Part shown: positions 2,141 to 12,856 of the stretch, in pieces
Position numbering within the stretch: position 1 is the first letter of the stretch
Layout of the letters: the number at the start of each line of letters is the position of its first letter
From: Candidatus Bathyarchaeota archaeon
GTDB taxonomy: Archaea; Thermoproteota; Bathyarchaeia; 40CM-2-53-6; RBG-13-38-9
NCBI GenBank assembly: GCA_007050885.1
Contig: SMYQ01000060.1
Coordinates: forward strand, 1 to 13,065
Length of the DNA: 13,065 bases
Direction: 5' to 3'
The notes under the pieces: model-generated
What the model saw: the letters and a program-made list of their open reading frames with translations, nothing else
Database searches by the model: none
What the model was told of the DNA's origin: nothing
Translations under genes and position numbers: made by a program

Positions 2141-3256
2141 TTATATTGTTCGTTTTGAGAGTAGAGTTGCTATTGGGAGGAGGATCATCGTGCTTATCAA
2201 CAATATTGCTAGATTACCTGCTACACCTTCCAAACCCAGACCAAGATACATTATTCGCCTTAAAGCTTCAATGCCATAAGTCCAAGGGAGACTTCTAGAT
2301 ATTGCTCGACCAGCAGGAGCAAGTACTTCCGGTGCTGAAAATGCTCCTGCTAGCTGGAATAGCGGAAAGGTAATGGCAATTTCTAAAATTGTTAAAGTTG
2401 CAGAACTGCGAACTCTAGATGAAATCAGCAAACCAAAGGATAAGGTAAACATAGCGATTAATGATGTCGTTAAATAAATTAGTGCTATGTTTCCTTGAAT
2501 TACTAAACCATTCCAAACAAAGATGATGAGCATAAAAGTAGTCCGCAATGCGTTTATTATAAGAGTTGATACCATTTTTCCGCTATAGATAGAGAAAATA
2601 TTCATAGGAGTAAGTGCAAGTCTTGGAAACGTACCACGTTCACGCTCTCGAGTCATAGCATTGACTGCATCATCAAAGGCACCCAAAATGATGATCATTC
2701 CTAACTGTCCTGGCAGTATGAAATCTCCACTTGGTGGACGTCCCGAAATAGGTCTAGACACTATTTCAACGGAAGCGGTTTTCAAGTTATATTGTTCCGT
2801 AAGATCATCTATTAGTTCTTGTTTTTGTTCAGCAACCGCTCTAAGGATATTAGCGCTGGCTAAGATTTTTGTATTATCAGTTTGGACTACAACAAATGCT
2901 TCTTGTGCGTTGAGAAGTCTATTTCCAAATCCGGCAGGAATGACGATCGATCCTATTACCTCACCTGATTCAACGACTGCAATAGCTTTTTCTTCAGTTT
3001 GTACCAATTGAGCTATACGAACCAATTCAGTTGAAGATATTTTATCAATAAGAATCTTCGATTCTCCTGATCCATCCAAGTCTGCTATAACTATTGGCAC
3101 GATGTTCGGATTACCGAAGGCTGAGGAGATCACAATGAATATACTGATCAAGAGGATTGGAAACATTACCGTTAAGGCTAGAGATAATGGGTCTCTACTA
3201 AGCTGTTTCAGTTCTTTTTGGGTTACAACTATGGTATCACGAATAAGGCGATTCAT
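2141..3256 (-). CDS. ABC-2 type exporter permease B
   Basis: Membrane subunit (371 residues) of an ABC-2 exporter. The order is a short cytoplasmic start, helix 1 at about 25-47 (LTVMFPILLISIFIVISS), a large outside domain to about residue 180, then five further helices. The cytoplasmic motif RERERGTFPRLALTP, about residues 205-220, is the coupling segment that contacts the ATPase in this family (E-x-E-x-GT...L..SP). SLPWTYGIEALRR near the C-terminus is another typical segment. It is homologous in layout to permease A, so the two probably form a heterodimer. The ATG overlaps the TGA of permease A by 4 bases (ATGA), a sign of translational coupling. Last gene of the operon. The exported substrate is unknown; relatives export drugs, lipids, polysaccharides or peptides. 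Confidence 0.88.
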   Translation of the reverse strand: MNRLIRDTIVVTQKELKQLSRDPLSLALTVMFPILLISIFIVISSAFGNPNIVPIVIADLDGSGESKILIDKISSTELVRIAQLVQTEEKAIAVVESGEVIGSIVIPAGFGNRLLNAQEAFVVVQTDNTKILASANILRAVAEQKQELIDDLTEQYNLKTASVEIVSRPISGRPPSGDFILPGQLGMIIILGAFDDAVNAMTRERERGTFPRLALTPMNIFSIYSGKMVSTLIINALRTTFMLIIFVWNGLVIQGNIALIYLTTSLIAMFTLSFGLLISSRVRSSATLTILEIAITFPLFQLAGAFSAPEVLAPAGRAISRSLPWTYGIEALRRIMYLGLGLEGVAGNLAILLISTMILLPIATLLSKRTI

Positions 3257-4407
3257 TTTACGAGCCTCTCTCGTGATAATTTTAGTAGTAGATATGCGAT
3301 TCCATAGAATAACATGATGGAGATGAATATTATCTGCAATTGATATGTAAGGGTCAACAAGGGTTGACCTATTAGTATTGTTCGTTTTAGGATATCAATA
3401 CCGTAAGCCCATGGAAGAATCGTTGCTATTGTCTGTGATATACCTCTCAGTAGTTCTTTATCTATAAAAAAACCGCTGAAGGCAAATAGAAAAAGAATTA
3501 AAAAGAACTCTATGATAACGACAGCCCTTACGCCAACTCCGAATGATGAAACTAGAAAACCAAAGCCCATCGTTAGTATTGCAATAAAAAGTACACTTAA
3601 AACCAGTGACAAGAAGTTTGTTTGGATACTTGCTCCGTAAACATAAATCGCTAAACCTAGAACAATGAATGTGCGTATAATATTGAGACATACCACATAG
3701 AACGTTTTACCTATCATTATTGATCCTAAACTTACAGGACTAACTAACAAGTGTGCATAGGTTCCCGTTTCTCTTTCTCGCGACATACCACCAGCAATTT
3801 CATAAAATGTTGCGAATACTACCACCATAGTAAGTGTGATCGTCAAACCGACTGCAAAACCTGAAAAACTAGCCCCCTTCCTGACTATTTCCACCCCAAC
3901 GAATTCAATGTTACCTGTCTGTTTTATTCTTGGATTTGGATTGAAATTAGTTAGACTTGCCTCAACATTAGAAAGGATTGCATCATCAACACCAGGGGAC
4001 CCATCATCAACATGCACAATAATTATTCCTGTTTCATTATTCAATAATCTTTTTTGGAACCCCTCTGGCACAACAATCGCGCCATAGAGTCCACCTTTTC
4101 CCAAAGTTGCCAGAGCATCCTCTTCTCTATATCCTTGAATTAACATATTGAAATTCTCTGATCTTACTAGGGTCTCGTACAAGCGGCCTGAAGCTTCGGT
4201 AAGATCCTGATCTATGAAAGCGATAGGAATCTCAGCTGAGGCTGAATAAGTCTCTCCTTCTCCTCCTCTTCCTGCTCCTAGAGATGCTGTGAAAAAAAAT
4301 GGGATCACAACAAGTGAGATAAGAATTGCAGAACGGTTCCGCCTTAATATTCGAAATTCATTGAACATTACTGCAAAGACATTACTGAAATGCTTTAGCT
4401 GAGACAT
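3253..4407 (-). CDS. ABC-2 type exporter permease A
   Basis: Membrane subunit of 384 residues from the ATG at 4407; a TTG at 4413 would add two residues, and neither start has a strong ribosome site. Helix 1 (ILISLVVIPFFFTASLGAG) is followed by an outside domain of about 130 residues containing a PEGFQKRLLNN segment. The same kind of PAGFGNRLLNA segment occurs in permease B, which supports common descent. Then come five helices with the coupling motif RERETGTYAHLLVSP-x-SLGSIMIGK and the late ILPWAYGIDILKR. This matches the long-loop ABC-2 permease architecture. It follows the ATPase gene after a 55-base gap holding an 18-bp palindrome, and overlaps permease B by 4 bases. It acts in the cytoplasmic membrane as one half of the exporter channel. 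Confidence 0.88.
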   Translation of the reverse strand: MSQLKHFSNVFAVMFNEFRILRRNRSAILISLVVIPFFFTASLGAGRGGEGETYSASAEIPIAFIDQDLTEASGRLYETLVRSENFNMLIQGYREEDALATLGKGGLYGAIVVPEGFQKRLLNNETGIIIVHVDDGSPGVDDAILSNVEASLTNFNPNPRIKQTGNIEFVGVEIVRKGASFSGFAVGLTITLTMVVVFATFYEIAGGMSRERETGTYAHLLVSPVSLGSIMIGKTFYVVCLNIIRTFIVLGLAIYVYGASIQTNFLSLVLSVLFIAILTMGFGFLVSSFGVGVRAVVIIEFFLILFLFAFSGFFIDKELLRGISQTIATILPWAYGIDILKRTILIGQPLLTLTYQLQIIFISIMLFYGIAYLLLKLSRERLVK

Positions 4408-6913: not shown

Positions 6914-9900
6914 ATGGTTCACCGGGGTTTTCTCTTTTTATTCGTAACCCTTTTAGTGACCCAACTTTTAACTCCAGTTTTTGCTCATACAACTATAGGT
7001 AACCTAAACGACATATCACCTTATTTTAGATCTAATGATCATGAATTGAATCCAACTAATACGTTTGGCACAGGACATGTTCCTGGACCTTTAGCTTATT
7101 TATGGCCTGGATCTGGTTTCAATTTCTATACAAATACTACTAGTCCTCCTGGATACCAATCACCCTTCCAAGATTTTGAACAACCCTTACAAGTCGCAGG
7201 TAATTCTTATTCTCCCGAAGGAGCGATATTAACCTCAACTCCTAATCAAGATAATATTGGAGATCTTATTCTTGCCATAAATTTCTCACAACCAACAGCT
7301 TTCACATCCCAAGAAAATCCAACGCCAACGTTCCGTTATAATAACATCACAATATACATTCCAGCTCCTTTAGTTGATAAACACGGAGAACTTATTCAAG
7401 ACGGATTTGAACCAGCAGGAAGCATCATCTGGGATCTAGGAGACAGTTCCAATATCCTGACTACTCTGACAGCAGATAATGGACAAATATTCGTCGGTAA
7501 AGCTGACATGAATGACCCCTTCGCACCAGGCTGGTGGGCTATACAAATCTTAGCTGCAGGAAGCGGTATGGAATTTACACCAGAGAGAGAGTGGAAAGAG
7601 CATTATTACATAAGAATCAATCAACTAAGAGCTCCAGACATTGCTGGGAGATATTTATTCAAGATATTTTTAGGTGGCCATTATCCTGTCAAGAGACAAA
7701 GTGATCCTCTCGTTAACAGTACAATGCCCGTAGAGAATTGGCCTGTATTATTAGTGAAAGCAGAGTTAGATCCAGCCATCATATATGGAACCTTAAGATA
7801 TGGTGAAATCGCCAATCCAGTACTTTATGGAGAGCCAATCAAAGCCCCAGGTATGATTAGAGCAGTTGGAACTGCAACAGATCCCATTACAAACGAACCC
7901 ACAAACAGGCGAGTAGAAGCAAGAGGGTATTTCAATGGTTCTTCAGGAGGCCATTTTGAAATAGAAGGAGTTGCTCCAGGAATTTATAACATATTTGCTA
8001 GTGCGGCGGGATTTCCTGAACAGCTTGTTTCCACTAGCTTAATGGTTATTCGAGGACAATCTCTCTTATCTGATTTCTATCTGAATCCTGGACCTGAAAT
8101 TCGTGGAGAGATATACTCAAAGAATTGTTCTGGTCGGACACCATGGAAGAGTGAACTTCCAATTAGCGTAGTCATATATGATAGCGATAATTATGTTGAG
8201 CAGAATGTTGAATCTTATTCTCCAATAAATCTAACACACGCACCATACACATCTTATGTTATCGGGAATACAATATTTGCTTCTGATAAACTGGCAGCAC
8301 CCAACGCCCCCAAACAGGTTGCTTTTCCTTGGGAAGGACCAATAAGTTACTATCCTAATACGGCAATTCCCCCATTCATAGATCCTTTTGGAGTTCATAA
8401 CGGAGTAGGACCATCACAGGTTTGGTGGGTAAGTCCCACAGCTAATTTGGATCCAGTTACAGGACTTGGCTCTGATTCTTCGTCCTTTCGATTCCAATTC
8501 GGATTTCAGCGTCATTATGGTGCTCCAAAAAGACTCAGCGGTATGGTTCCACAGACATTTGCTACATGGATTGATGGTTTAGGTCCTGGGACATATTTCA
8601 TTCGTGCATATGTTAACGGATATATTCAGACAGATATCTCAGGAGCAATTTTTCGAGATTATCCCGTCACAATTGTTGATAAGCAAACATTAAGTGAAGA
8701 TCTATTCCTTGATCTATGGACATCTGGCACTTTAAATTTTACAGTGCATTTTCATGATAGTACTGCAGGATTACAGACTCAAAAGATTGGAGGACCTGAC
8801 CCTGGAAGATTTCTATTGGCGGAGGCCGTAGATTCAAGTGGTGAGTTAGTATCCTTCAACTTCACTTATGTTCCTTCCTCATCAAGAAGTGCTACTTTAA
8901 CTCTTAATGGTTTAGGCATGGCAGGAGTTATACCACCACCAGATCCACGGGAGGGAGTGAAATATTCATTGTTTCGTTATCGAGGTGTTAGAGATTATGG
9001 AATCTATCCCGGAACATACTTACTTCACATATTCATGAGGGGATATATTCATGCAATTCCTCCAGGTGAAGAGTCAACTAACCTTGATCAACCAGCAGCT
9101 TTTTCGATTTCATCTTGCGGAAGACTTTCAAGCCTTAGCACTCACATGTTTAGAGGTGCAGGAATCAACACTACAATTTATTCTATTGACTGGCAAGATC
9201 CCCCCTCAGCGACACCATGGAAGTGGAACGATACTTCGGCATCGATCCTAGTTCACGATTTAGCATCGGGTGAACAAATTGATGCGATATATTATTGGGA
9301 TTCTGTTAGAAACATATGGACTATCCCGAGAACCAACTCCGAGTATACAACCATACCATGGCCTAATTGGAAAATCACATTTGGCGCCTCATCTAGCTAT
9401 CTAATTACTAATGGATCCACAATCCTAGAGCGATTCGGACCTGACCTCCCCTCTCCGATCTCCCCATTTCCTGAACAAGACATAGCCAGCAATGTATTCT
9501 TCCAATCTTCATTCCGCATTGGATTTCTGTACACCTCATTTTTTTATCGAGCACCTGATTTCAAATCAACAATTGCAATCTATCCTGGTCAATATGCGTT
9601 AAGTAGCTGGACCTATGGGTATGTTCAAGAAGGAGTCACGACTCTTGGTGAACTTGGAAGGCATTTGGTATCAGTAAAAATCGGACATATTGCTGATACA
9701 TCTGTGCGACTTATTCAAGGTGTTGAGTTCAACCTCAAAATAATATTTGAGAAGGAAGATTTACCCACCTCATTGCCTGCTAACATGTCGATGCGTATTA
9801 GAATATATGATGATAGAGATATTCTTGTAGCTGCAGCCTCAACGTCACATGATTTTGGTGAGGTCGACCCCTTATCTAATGTTGGTTTCTTCGCAGATGG

Positions 9901-10684
9901 AAAGAAGATATTCGATGCGGGTGGAACAAAACCACCGATTCCAGCAGGAACCCTTCAAGTTGAATATAAGAGATTAACTGGACTTTTCGGTTATGTAGAC
10001 CCAATAGAAGGGACTGAAGCATTGAGACGACTATTCCAATTCTCTCCAAATGTTGGTGTATGGGGAGACTCAAGCACATCAATAATCGGCGCATACAAGG
10101 GAAATTGGCAAGTACTTGTTGAGTTAGTTCCATGGTACAGTCCTTCAGAGTTTTACCCTCCCACAACCGGAATGCTTCAAGGCGAATCCCATCAAACCAA
10201 ATTCACAATTCTCTTACCATACAACCATCTTGGACCTTTCGAATTAAGAGAAGACGTCATCATACCTAACACAAATCTTGGGGGAGGAGCCACAGCAGTA
10301 TTATCACTTGACTTAAGAGGAATGGTTACTGGAACAGTTTATGCACGAAATATGAGGGGCGATTTTAGAACTGTAAGTTGGGCTACTATATTACTTGAGA
10401 CTCCAACACAAATACATCAAACCTATTCATTCGATGGTTTTTATGAATCATATTTACCACTGAATACCTATTCGATAAGAGTGGAAGAACCAGGACTATC
10501 CCATCAAGATGATATAATCATGTTATCAGATGCTGGAACCATCACATCTAACGCATATATGTACCAAACCGGAGTGCCTATCCCAGAATTTTCAATGTAT
10601 ACTTCAACTATACTGACAATCTGCATCTTTATTAGCTATTTTAGTTTCAAAAAGAACAAAAGTAAAAAAGAAAACAATTTTTGA
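6914..10684 (+). CDS. Giant secreted repeat protein with PEF-type C-terminal sorting signal
   Basis: A 1256-residue surface protein I cannot name. Residues 1-24 form a signal peptide with a likely cut after VFA. Residues about 25-300 are an N-terminal domain unlike any I recognise. From about 340 the protein is built of divergent units resembling carboxypeptidase regulatory-like (CarboxypepD_reg) beta sandwiches. A P-G-x-Y-x(7)-G-[FY] motif recurs at residues 355, 558, 699 and 891, with a weaker PLNTY copy at 1182. The first four are followed about 35-45 residues later by an L-x-x-G type strand opening the next unit (390, 601, 745, 933). Many N-x-[ST] sites are available for glycosylation. 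The tail is tripartite: PEF at 1224-1226, one helix at 1228-1245, then a basic cluster KKNKSKK. This resembles PEF-CTERM proteins processed by archaeosortases. Likely an S-layer-linked adhesin or structural protein. Confidence 0.82.
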   Translation: MVHRGFLFLFVTLLVTQLLTPVFAHTTIGNLNDISPYFRSNDHELNPTNTFGTGHVPGPLAYLWPGSGFNFYTNTTSPPGYQSPFQDFEQPLQVAGNSYSPEGAILTSTPNQDNIGDLILAINFSQPTAFTSQENPTPTFRYNNITIYIPAPLVDKHGELIQDGFEPAGSIIWDLGDSSNILTTLTADNGQIFVGKADMNDPFAPGWWAIQILAAGSGMEFTPEREWKEHYYIRINQLRAPDIAGRYLFKIFLGGHYPVKRQSDPLVNSTMPVENWPVLLVKAELDPAIIYGTLRYGEIANPVLYGEPIKAPGMIRAVGTATDPITNEPTNRRVEARGYFNGSSGGHFEIEGVAPGIYNIFASAAGFPEQLVSTSLMVIRGQSLLSDFYLNPGPEIRGEIYSKNCSGRTPWKSELPISVVIYDSDNYVEQNVESYSPINLTHAPYTSYVIGNTIFASDKLAAPNAPKQVAFPWEGPISYYPNTAIPPFIDPFGVHNGVGPSQVWWVSPTANLDPVTGLGSDSSSFRFQFGFQRHYGAPKRLSGMVPQTFATWIDGLGPGTYFIRAYVNGYIQTDISGAIFRDYPVTIVDKQTLSEDLFLDLWTSGTLNFTVHFHDSTAGLQTQKIGGPDPGRFLLAEAVDSSGELVSFNFTYVPSSSRSATLTLNGLGMAGVIPPPDPREGVKYSLFRYRGVRDYGIYPGTYLLHIFMRGYIHAIPPGEESTNLDQPAAFSISSCGRLSSLSTHMFRGAGINTTIYSIDWQDPPSATPWKWNDTSASILVHDLASGEQIDAIYYWDSVRNIWTIPRTNSEYTTIPWPNWKITFGASSSYLITNGSTILERFGPDLPSPISPFPEQDIASNVFFQSSFRIGFLYTSFFYRAPDFKSTIAIYPGQYALSSWTYGYVQEGVTTLGELGRHLVSVKIGHIADTSVRLIQGVEFNLKIIFEKEDLPTSLPANMSMRIRIYDDRDILVAAASTSHDFGEVDPLSNVGFFADGKKIFDAGGTKPPIPAGTLQVEYKRLTGLFGYVDPIEGTEALRRLFQFSPNVGVWGDSSTSIIGAYKGNWQVLVELVPWYSPSEFYPPTTGMLQGESHQTKFTILLPYNHLGPFELREDVIIPNTNLGGGATAVLSLDLRGMVTGTVYARNMRGDFRTVSWATILLETPTQIHQTYSFDGFYESYLPLNTYSIRVEEPGLSHQDDIIMLSDAGTITSNAYMYQTGVPIPEFSMYTSTILTICIFISYFSFKKNKSKKENNF

Positions 10685-11255: not shown

Positions 11256-11747
11256 ATGAAGAGTGGAGCTAGGCTTTCTATGAGAAAAATGAAAAGTTGG
11301 AAATTGGGAAGCAGAATTTTCAGGATCTTTGCCTGGCTTTTACCTTACTCACCCTTAAGAGTATTCTTTCATAAACTATGTGGAGTTAAAATAGGTCAAG
11401 GTGCATATGTGGGCAACTTTGTATTAATGGATGGACAATATCCTGAATACATAATTATTGAAGATGAGACTTCAATTGCACCATTTACAATGATTCTAGC
11501 ACATTCTGGGGCCAGTCCCTTCCATCAGAGATTCAATCTATATCATAAAGGACCGCAGAGGGTTCACATCAAGAAAGGTGCATGGATAGCTGCTGGGGCA
11601 ATAATACTACCAAACGTCGTCATAGGTGAAGGAGCTATTGTGGCAGCTGGATCAGTCGTAACCTCCGATATTCCAGACTATACAGTTGTTGCAGGAATAC
11701 CAGCCAAACAAATAAAGGAAGTGCCCCAAAAAAGTGAAGCCAAGTAA
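11256..11747 (+). CDS. Left-handed beta-helix (hexapeptide repeat) acyltransferase
   Basis: An acyl-CoA-dependent O- or N-acyltransferase of the LacA/Maa/WcaF type, 163 residues. The hexapeptide pattern [LIV]-G-x(4) is clear from GVKIGQGAYVG (43-53) onward and in VHIKKGAWIAAGAIILPNVVIGEGAIVAAGSVV. It ends in the typical PDYTVVAGIPAKQIK. H83 in ILAHSGAS is in the position of the catalytic histidine of this superfamily. A loop carrying FHQRFNLYHKGP interrupts the coils. The basic, hydrophobic N-terminus (RIFRIFAWLLPYSPLRVFFHKLCG) may contact the membrane. In-frame ATGs at 11280 and 11289 are possible starts: TATA-like CTTTAAAC at 11234-11241 favours them, while AATTAA at 11227-11232 favours 11256. 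It overlaps the deacetylase gene by 14 bases, so the two are probably co-translated and act on one glycan. Confidence 0.87.
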   Translation: MKSGARLSMRKMKSWKLGSRIFRIFAWLLPYSPLRVFFHKLCGVKIGQGAYVGNFVLMDGQYPEYIIIEDETSIAPFTMILAHSGASPFHQRFNLYHKGPQRVHIKKGAWIAAGAIILPNVVIGEGAIVAAGSVVTSDIPDYTVVAGIPAKQIKEVPQKSEAK

Positions 11748-12552
11748 TCTACTTGGTTGGCTTAAACATCTTATCTTTACTAGAGGTGTGCATGTTAGCT
11801 ATACACAAATGTTAAGAATGTACCACTACCATCGAACACCCTTCGAAATAATTCTACAAAACATTTTCAATATCCTAGAAAAACATGAAGCCAAATTCAC
11901 GTTCAGCATAGTAGCATCAATAGCAAAACAAGAACTTATAGAAACTATCATGAATAGCGGACATGAGATAGCATCTCACAGCCTCTATCATGTCAAACAT
12001 AAAGGACTTTCTTTCGAAACCCAGTTTCATTATATCAGTAAATCTCTTGAACTTCTCAGTAACTATGGAGCAAATATCCAAGGATTCAGAGCTCCTTACA
12101 ACTCATACGATGATAATACTTTCAGATGTTTGAATAAGGTTAATGTTACTTATGATGCTGGAGTACGTAGAGAAGAAAGTTATAGAAAAATATTGCAACC
12201 ATTTCATCTAATGATAGATGATATTGAGTCAAGATTTGTCTCATTTCCGGTCTTTAACATTAGTGATGAATTACTTGATGATTTGCCAAAACAAATTGTC
12301 CTCAAATCATTTATTGAACACATCAACAACTTACCCGAAAACGGTTTAAGTGTACTTCAACTCCATCCTATAAGAATTGGACAAAAGAAATATCTTCAAT
12401 TTCTCAACAAACTTGTGTCACATATAACAACTCTCGGATTTGAAATGCCAACACTCACTGAAGTTGTAAATAAAAAATGTACTAAGCCTGCCATATGTCT
12501 CACTGGTGACATCGACTGCTTATCTTTCTATGATTATCTTAAGAGAATATGA
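11734..12552 (+). CDS. NodB-fold polysaccharide deacetylase, apparently circularly permuted
   Basis: A 272-residue carbohydrate deacetylase-like protein, starting at GTG inside the end of the acyltransferase gene. From residue 35 it follows the NodB (CE4) order. ILQNIFNILEKHEAKFTFSI matches the strand-2 region. GHEIASHSLYH gives the metal-binding H82-S-x-x-H86 (motif 2). GFRAPYNSYD gives R119-A-P-Y122 (motif 3). SVLQLHP gives the late histidine H211 (motif 5). LGFEMPTLTEVV (234-245) is the usual end of the domain. Motif 1, with the catalytic and metal Asp pair, is absent at the N-terminus. Instead KPAICLTGDIDCLS occurs at 251-264, with D259 and D261 just before the stop, followed by YDYLKR. 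So all active-site elements are present but rotated. No reading frame continues past the TGA. It probably removes acyl groups from a surface sugar; the substrate is unknown. Confidence 0.8.
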   Translation: MKPSNLLGWLKHLIFTRGVHVSYTQMLRMYHYHRTPFEIILQNIFNILEKHEAKFTFSIVASIAKQELIETIMNSGHEIASHSLYHVKHKGLSFETQFHYISKSLELLSNYGANIQGFRAPYNSYDDNTFRCLNKVNVTYDAGVRREESYRKILQPFHLMIDDIESRFVSFPVFNISDELLDDLPKQIVLKSFIEHINNLPENGLSVLQLHPIRIGQKKYLQFLNKLVSHITTLGFEMPTLTEVVNKKCTKPAICLTGDIDCLSFYDYLKRI

Positions 12553-12775: not shown

Positions 12776-12856
12776 ATGCCAGCAAAGAAGAAAGCAAAGA
12801 AAAAAACAACAAAGAAGAAAGCAACAAAGAAGAAAGCAAAAAAGAAAAAACGCTAA
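12776..12856 (+). CDS. Lysine-rich microprotein (histone H1-tail-like)
   Basis: A 26-residue open frame, ATG to TAA, coding for M-P-A followed by blocks of KKK separated by A or T and ending KKKKR. It has 16 lysines and one arginine out of 26 residues. It has its own TATA element (12737-12744) and a GGTG just ahead of the start, which argues against a chance frame in A-rich DNA. Composition resembles the C-terminal tails of eukaryotic histone H1 and bacterial Hc1-like proteins, so binding of DNA or RNA is the natural inference. No fold is expected. The lysine codons alternate AAG and AAA in a repeating AAG-AAG-AAA order, unlike a simple poly-A run. Homologues would be easily missed because of the small size. 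Confidence 0.65.
   Translation: MPAKKKAKKKTTKKKATKKKAKKKKR
12809..12838 (+). repeat. Two perfect 15-bp tandem repeats within the lysine-rich gene
   Basis: ACAAAGAAGAAAGCA occurs twice back to back (12809-12823 and 12824-12838). A third, near-identical copy lies earlier (GCAAAGAAGAAAGCA, 12782-12796). Each encodes [TA]KKKA. Tandem copies like this could expand or shrink by slippage while keeping the frame. Confidence 0.8.

Follow-up and report, generated by a model that had tools for sequence, protein, structure and literature searches.

The stretch of DNA analysed here, hereafter the window, comprises 13,065 nucleotides of contig SMYQ01000060.1 from a Candidatus Bathyarchaeota archaeon (assembly GCA_007050885.1). 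At positions 11734..12552 of the forward strand it carries a gene with a GTG start, delimited by its open reading frame (ORF), Pfam matches and homologues, which encodes a NodB/CE4 deacetylase of 272 amino acids that is very likely circularly permuted. The protein matched PF01522 (4.9e-14) over residues 42-140, corresponding to profile positions 22-123, while profile positions 1-21 had no counterpart at the protein front, and it matched DUF2334 (1.5e-07) over residues 67-226; a CE4-type (beta/alpha) barrel could be recognised. The linear CE4 order from motif 1 to motif 5 (MT1 to MT5) was not found, and the motifs were arranged as MT2-MT3-MT5-MT1. A preliminary description, made from the sequence alone, had reported this arrangement (HSxxH, RAPY and H211 in normal order, with D259 and D261 last) and had proposed a circular permutation; all of these residues were located where it had placed them.

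A search of about 5.8 billion proteins returned 84 matches, among which P0001-P0078 were taken as family, P0079-P0083 were conventional enzymes and P0084 was a fragment ending in the tail. A second search with the alignment as query returned 436 matches and P0205-P0284 were added from among the 120 matches listed, so that the family set comprised at least 158 proteins. The tail motif was found behind motif 5 by pattern in 149 of them, and inspection by eye of the remaining nine revealed the tail DxD in eight, the frame-shifted P0016 being without a tail. An Asp pair ahead of motif 2 was detected by pattern in five proteins, but by eye all five pairs fell within the helix 37-50 region or past it, none at the opening of a strand. 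Neither a motif 1 in front nor a second domain was found among the 158 family proteins. The longest protein had 309 amino acids and at most 16 residues followed the tail in the 157 proteins with a recognisable one, so that a second domain behind the tail was rejected. The rotated order, which the preliminary description had suggested looking for in homologues, was found throughout the family, and the close homologues that would have contradicted it, with motif 1 in front and a second full domain, were not seen in this set. No two-domain intermediate was observed either, in protein searches that cannot return proteins longer than 1.75 times the query. An origin by duplication and trimming is plausible, though unproven.

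Relatives were confined to archaea in a pattern scan of one genome per species (84,980 species), which yielded 108 stretches, 46 of them relatives. By their titles, all 46 loci belonged to Bathyarchaeota, Nitrososphaerales, Thor-, Heimdall-, Hod-, Loki- or Helarchaeota, or to unnamed archaea. In a quick tree of 46 sequences (L004 was too short), the window grouped with L001-L003 (97%), while the helarchaeal L044 stood on a very long branch and its place was unsure. This very divergent member (7884-8711, + strand) displayed the same permuted order, with the tail CLSGDIDNLSILDYFRR, and no FkbH gene within 6 kb. Among 61 genomes around the nearest one, five harbored a permuted member, one of them partial, and the other matches inspected were conventional.

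An assembly or annotation artefact, in which a frameshift or a wrong start conceals a normal motif 1, can practically be dismissed. The GTG start codon and a database cluster (P0002) that begins the protein at residue 26 could be taken as hints of a misplaced start. However, a stop codon lies six codons upstream of the GTG in the deacetylase frame, and the DNA there belongs to an overlapping acyltransferase gene, so that no motif 1 is hidden upstream; together with the PF01522 match starting at profile position 22, this also bears out the claim that the N-terminus lacks motif 1. Homologues refute the artefact as well, the DxD tail being present in 46 of 47 loci including the window (L042 is cut by a contig end) and in 157 of the 158 proteins (eight of them assigned by eye).

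Conservation was evaluated in an alignment of the window protein with 156 of the 158 family proteins (P0016 and P0017, shorter than 240 amino acids, were left out), and all of the following features lie on the forward strand. In place of motif 1, residues 1-36 (11734..11841) formed two N-terminal helices according to DSSP of the model, with M29 and H33 identical in all 156 rows having a letter there. Motif 2 (HSLYH, H82-H86; 11977..11991) contains the presumed metal ligands H82 and H86, identical in 157 of 157 rows and spaced like His86/His90 of HpPgdA. Motif 3 (RAPY, R119-Y122; 12088..12099) was likewise conserved at R119, P121 and Y122 (157 of 157), and so were D141 and D178. Motif 5 (LHPIRIGQ, residues 210-217; 12361..12384), aligning to the HPQ-IGR of conventional relatives, includes the presumed catalytic acid H211, which was identical in all 157 rows along with P212. 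The C-terminal tail (residues 247-272; 12472..12549), identified from the model and a tail hidden Markov model (HMM) as the displaced first strand and helix, reads LTGDIDCLSFYDYLKRI, with LTGDID at 256-261 and the chain ending in YDYLKRI before the stop. Its motif 1 Asp pair, D259-I-D261 (12508..12516), would provide base and metal ligand by analogy with D12/D14 of HpPgdA. All 157 rows agreed at D259, D261, D267 and R271, and 156 of them at G258; given this identity, the tail Asp pair is not a chance occurrence.

Two AlphaFold models (predicted local distance difference test, pLDDT, 91.7 and 92.6) displayed the tail as a confident strand, contrary to the disordered segment that the preliminary description had named as a refuting result. 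DSSP of the model placed the tail strand at 253-260 and a helix at 265-271, and the invariant Asp pair sits on the tail strand of the predicted models.

Profile comparisons pointed to a kinship between the tail and motif 1 of conventional enzymes. The body of the family (residues 41-246) paired with residues 46-253 of conventional NodB proteins, end to end save for their first 45 residues. An HMM of the tail only was searched against 70 proteins taken as conventional, namely the longest ORF (180-700 amino acids) over the centre of each non-permuted locus plus eight database proteins; a few of them, such as L055 and L059, were evidently not plain NodB proteins. It matched 38 of the 70, with a best score of 8.1 bits (L119) against -0.8 for the best of 44 matched reversed sequences. 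The best eight rows all fell on motif 1 by eye, including one copy (L117 of L115p, the L115 protein) and one near-copy (L053 and P0085). Removal of L117 and of redundancy left 57 proteins, and dropping 18 without motif 1, by a rule blind to the permuted family, left 39, of which 23 were matched, 18 on motif 1; this count is low, as the rule puts motif 1 in the wrong place in a few proteins, such as L075. As a control, 34 other 26-residue segments of the permuted family (mutually overlapping) gave no motif 1 match in 29 cases and one match in five. The group of archaeal LTHDVD proteins was left out of a further test because it had been found via the rotated profile; 16 of the 30 proteins were then matched, and by eye 12 of these matches fell on motif 1, with a best score of 6.7 bits and most scores near or below zero. 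More than the DxD is shared, since the better matches have in common a Trp and a strand ahead of the Asp pair (WP..xxCxxxLTFDVD), the window's own tail being without that Trp.

The resemblance of the tail to a NodB domain opening would also be expected if the protein had lost its first strand and the tail were what is left of a deleted second NodB domain, without completing the active site. This alternative, already raised in the preliminary description, appeared very improbable: a useless remnant would decay, whereas all 157 rows keep the tail Asp pair and nothing else in the protein resembles motif 1. The confident strand in both models and the 16 residues at most that follow the tail are also at odds with it. 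A circular permutation of the NodB/CE4 barrel throughout the family, supported by the motif order, the invariant tail Asp pair, the tail HMM kinship and the confident strand, is therefore highly likely.

Several results lend little support to this interpretation or weigh against it. Tail-to-motif 1 scores were low when taken singly (best 8.1 bits, many below zero), and an ungapped profile slide of the tail did not reach significance, column shuffles doing equally well in 1306 of 2000 and 1150 of 2000 cases; motif 1 was the tail's best place in the LTHDVD family and only the second best in the HPQ-IGR family. Aligning the rotated sequence with NodB proteins, which the preliminary description had suggested as a check, brought no gain in profile-comparison score (153.07 rotated vs 153.14), and no match shown of the rotated profile to Protein Data Bank (PDB) sequences extended through motif 1. 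On L115p, the rotated profile scored 23.6 bits vs 34.0 for the native one, which matched as two pieces in swapped order, and 29.8 for a profile rotated elsewhere. A profile of rotated sequences found matches in 79 of 300 genomes. In G001 and G048 the match came as two pieces in swapped order, a single conventional protein was matched over 5 to 283 (26.5 bits), and other loci were matched from position 53 or later and therefore without the tail. Among 50 matches to the model listed in each of two comparisons, 15 and 18 reached the model end or nearly so; these were GH57-type enzymes and an insect chitin deacetylase. Among the 50 matches listed from a viral structure library, no protein with motif 1 last was recognised. 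Direct-coupling analysis (effective number of sequences, Meff, 91) was too noisy and gave no clear contact. To our knowledge, no family member has been assayed.

In the permuted protein, the chain would now start between the old strand 1 and helix 1, with the old strand 1 and its DxD coming last. Folding would bring D259/D261 next to H82/H86, where D261 and the two His may hold the metal, with D259 as base and H211 as acid, as in HpPgdA. The permuted protein is very probably catalytically active. An inactive or non-hydrolytic NodB fold protein (a pseudoenzyme or binding protein) that keeps the tail for stability seems improbable, since every presumed metal ligand and both candidates for acid and base are invariant and the gene adjoins acyl-transfer genes, although CE4 pseudoenzymes exist, as the entries 6hpa and 7bkf indicate by title, and assays of family members were not found.

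The likeness to PgaB and IcaB (the latter presumably also a circularly permuted poly-N-acetylglucosamine (poly-GlcNAc) deacetylase) lies in a CE4 barrel with circularly permuted motifs. The cut differs: in PgaB/IcaB it lies in loop 5 and puts motif 5 first, whereas in the window family it lies between motif 1 and motif 2 and puts motif 1 last. As H211 stays late and motif 1 stands at the end, the family does not share the loop 5 shuffling point, inclusion in the PgaB/IcaB permutation was rejected, and the two permutations look like separate rearrangements. The family would thus represent a second permutation site in the CE4 barrel, known here only from archaea. A review (PMC5855634) presents poly-GlcNAc deacetylases as circularly permuted CE4 enzymes with a shuffling point in loop 5, and PMC4817252 notes circular permutations in several members. 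HpPgdA (HP0310, 3qbu), for which PMC3084791 gives His86/His90 and D12/D14 as motif residues, has motif 1 in front, unlike the window family. PuuE allantoinase (3cl6) and 3rxz were also among the closest known systems. BoPDA from Bacteroides ovatus is another atypical CE4 enzyme, but its oddity (PMC11713874) consists of an insertion into a carbohydrate-binding module (CBM) and a His-Asp dyad and not of a permutation. Passages of the Agd3 and PelA papers also deal with other features; there, as in the abstract and passages of the BoPDA paper, permutation either goes unmentioned or occurs only within the title of a reference. No report of motif 1 at the C-terminus of a CE4 protein was found in the titles and abstract openings searched, a limited negative with the subscription literature mostly outside.

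Conventional NodB proteins (P0085-P0204, several named bathyarchaeal) carry HPQxIGR and align over 41-246 with the same late HP.xIG motif. Motif 1 was in front in 111 of these 120 by pattern, and the tail pattern occurred in the last 60 residues of none; the opening of P0085 (WPxGxxCxxxLSFDYD) resembles the tail of the window family. Archaeal LTHDVD deacetylase-like proteins (L115 ORF 3097-4134, L118 and L119) open with W and then CLTHDVD or VLTHDVD, an opening that includes the tail's best match (8.1 bits, L119); they have the conventional order, open frames of 345-441 amino acids and a more distant body. The rotated profile matched the L115 ORF (genome G187, 3097-4134, - strand) from one end to the other, and this ORF adjoins others that resemble, by eye, a UDP-GlcNAc epimerase and a glycosyltransferase.

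Directly upstream of the deacetylase, a hexapeptide (LbH) acyltransferase gene (11256..11747, + strand; PF00132, 6.9e-14) overlaps it by 14 bases; LbH also lies upstream of the deacetylase in the window's clade. The window sequence stops 513 bases past the deacetylase gene. Clustering covered the ORFs around the window and around the 46 loci, some loci being cut by contig ends. Within 6 kb, the 47 loci encoded the LbH acyltransferase (42), FkbH (37), AcpS (32), a methylmalonyl-CoA-epimerase-like VOC protein (16) and an STT3-family protein (5, the family being assigned by Pfam in one member, L022). An acyl carrier protein (ACP) with a WDS motif was near the cluster in 34 loci, and FkbH, ACP, AcpS and LbH occurred together in 30. 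LbH was no more than 60 bp away from the deacetylase in 36 loci, on the same strand in 32. Representatives, one or few of each, were identified by TIGR01686 (336 bits), TIGR00556/PF01648, PF00132, PF13669, PF02516 and PF00550. FkbH with ACP stood beside the gene in 34 loci, and most loci outside the window's clade also had FkbH, ACP and AcpS; the pair was absent from the window and from L001-L004. A further cluster present in 23 loci (printed members of about 300-340 amino acids) typically lies just upstream of the deacetylase; its representative (L014, 5100-6122, + strand) had no Pfam or NCBIfam match.

FkbH proteins charge ACP with a glyceryl group. From these neighbours, less surely than the permutation, we infer that a sugar is deacetylated and its amine then acylated anew: the deacetylase would remove the N-acetyl group from a sugar and the adjoining LbH acyltransferase would then attach a different acyl group to the amine. 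For most family members this group may come from FkbH-loaded ACP (glyceryl or similar), and in the window's clade, without FkbH next door, from another donor; FkbH was found in none of four genomes of that clade (completeness 73-90%), which counts against the reading. A full archaeal acyl-exchange module, in which the permuted deacetylase strips acetyl from a lipid- or protein-linked glycan sugar and LbH adds a glyceryl-type group supplied by FkbH/ACP, is put forward tentatively, as a possibility with the odds somewhat against it. A small molecule or acyl-carrier intermediate as substrate instead of a sugar seems rather unlikely, as both the LbH partner and the STT3-family gene in 5 of 47 loci hint at glycans.

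Two other features of the window were observed. At 12776-12856 (+ strand), a 26-codon ORF (MPAKKKAKKKTTKKKATKKKAKKKKR) is followed by an inverted repeat (CCCTCTCACC ... GGTGAGGGGG); this stretch is conserved in L001 with an in-frame three-base insertion and a few substitutions, and the ORF possibly encodes a histone-tail-like microprotein. At 6914-10684 (+ strand), a secreted-looking protein of 1256 amino acids is encoded with only a weak carboxypeptidase-regulatory-like match, and in L003 the permuted gene has a homologue of it upstream.

How much freedom a catalytic barrel has to be opened elsewhere is put to a striking test by a permutation in which the metal-binding strand is itself relocated. 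With a second permutation cut at another place, the CE4 barrel would prove able to open at more than one loop while remaining under selection. Because of the permutation, the Pfam profile matches only from position 22, and such enzymes could therefore be labelled truncated or inactive. The frequent FkbH-ACP-AcpS-LbH neighbourhood makes it possible to test for a sugar modification in Asgard archaea and Bathyarchaeota that may be unknown so far; the acyl-exchange module, if true, would mean an undescribed N-acyl sugar on the surface glycans of Asgard and bathyarchaeal cells.
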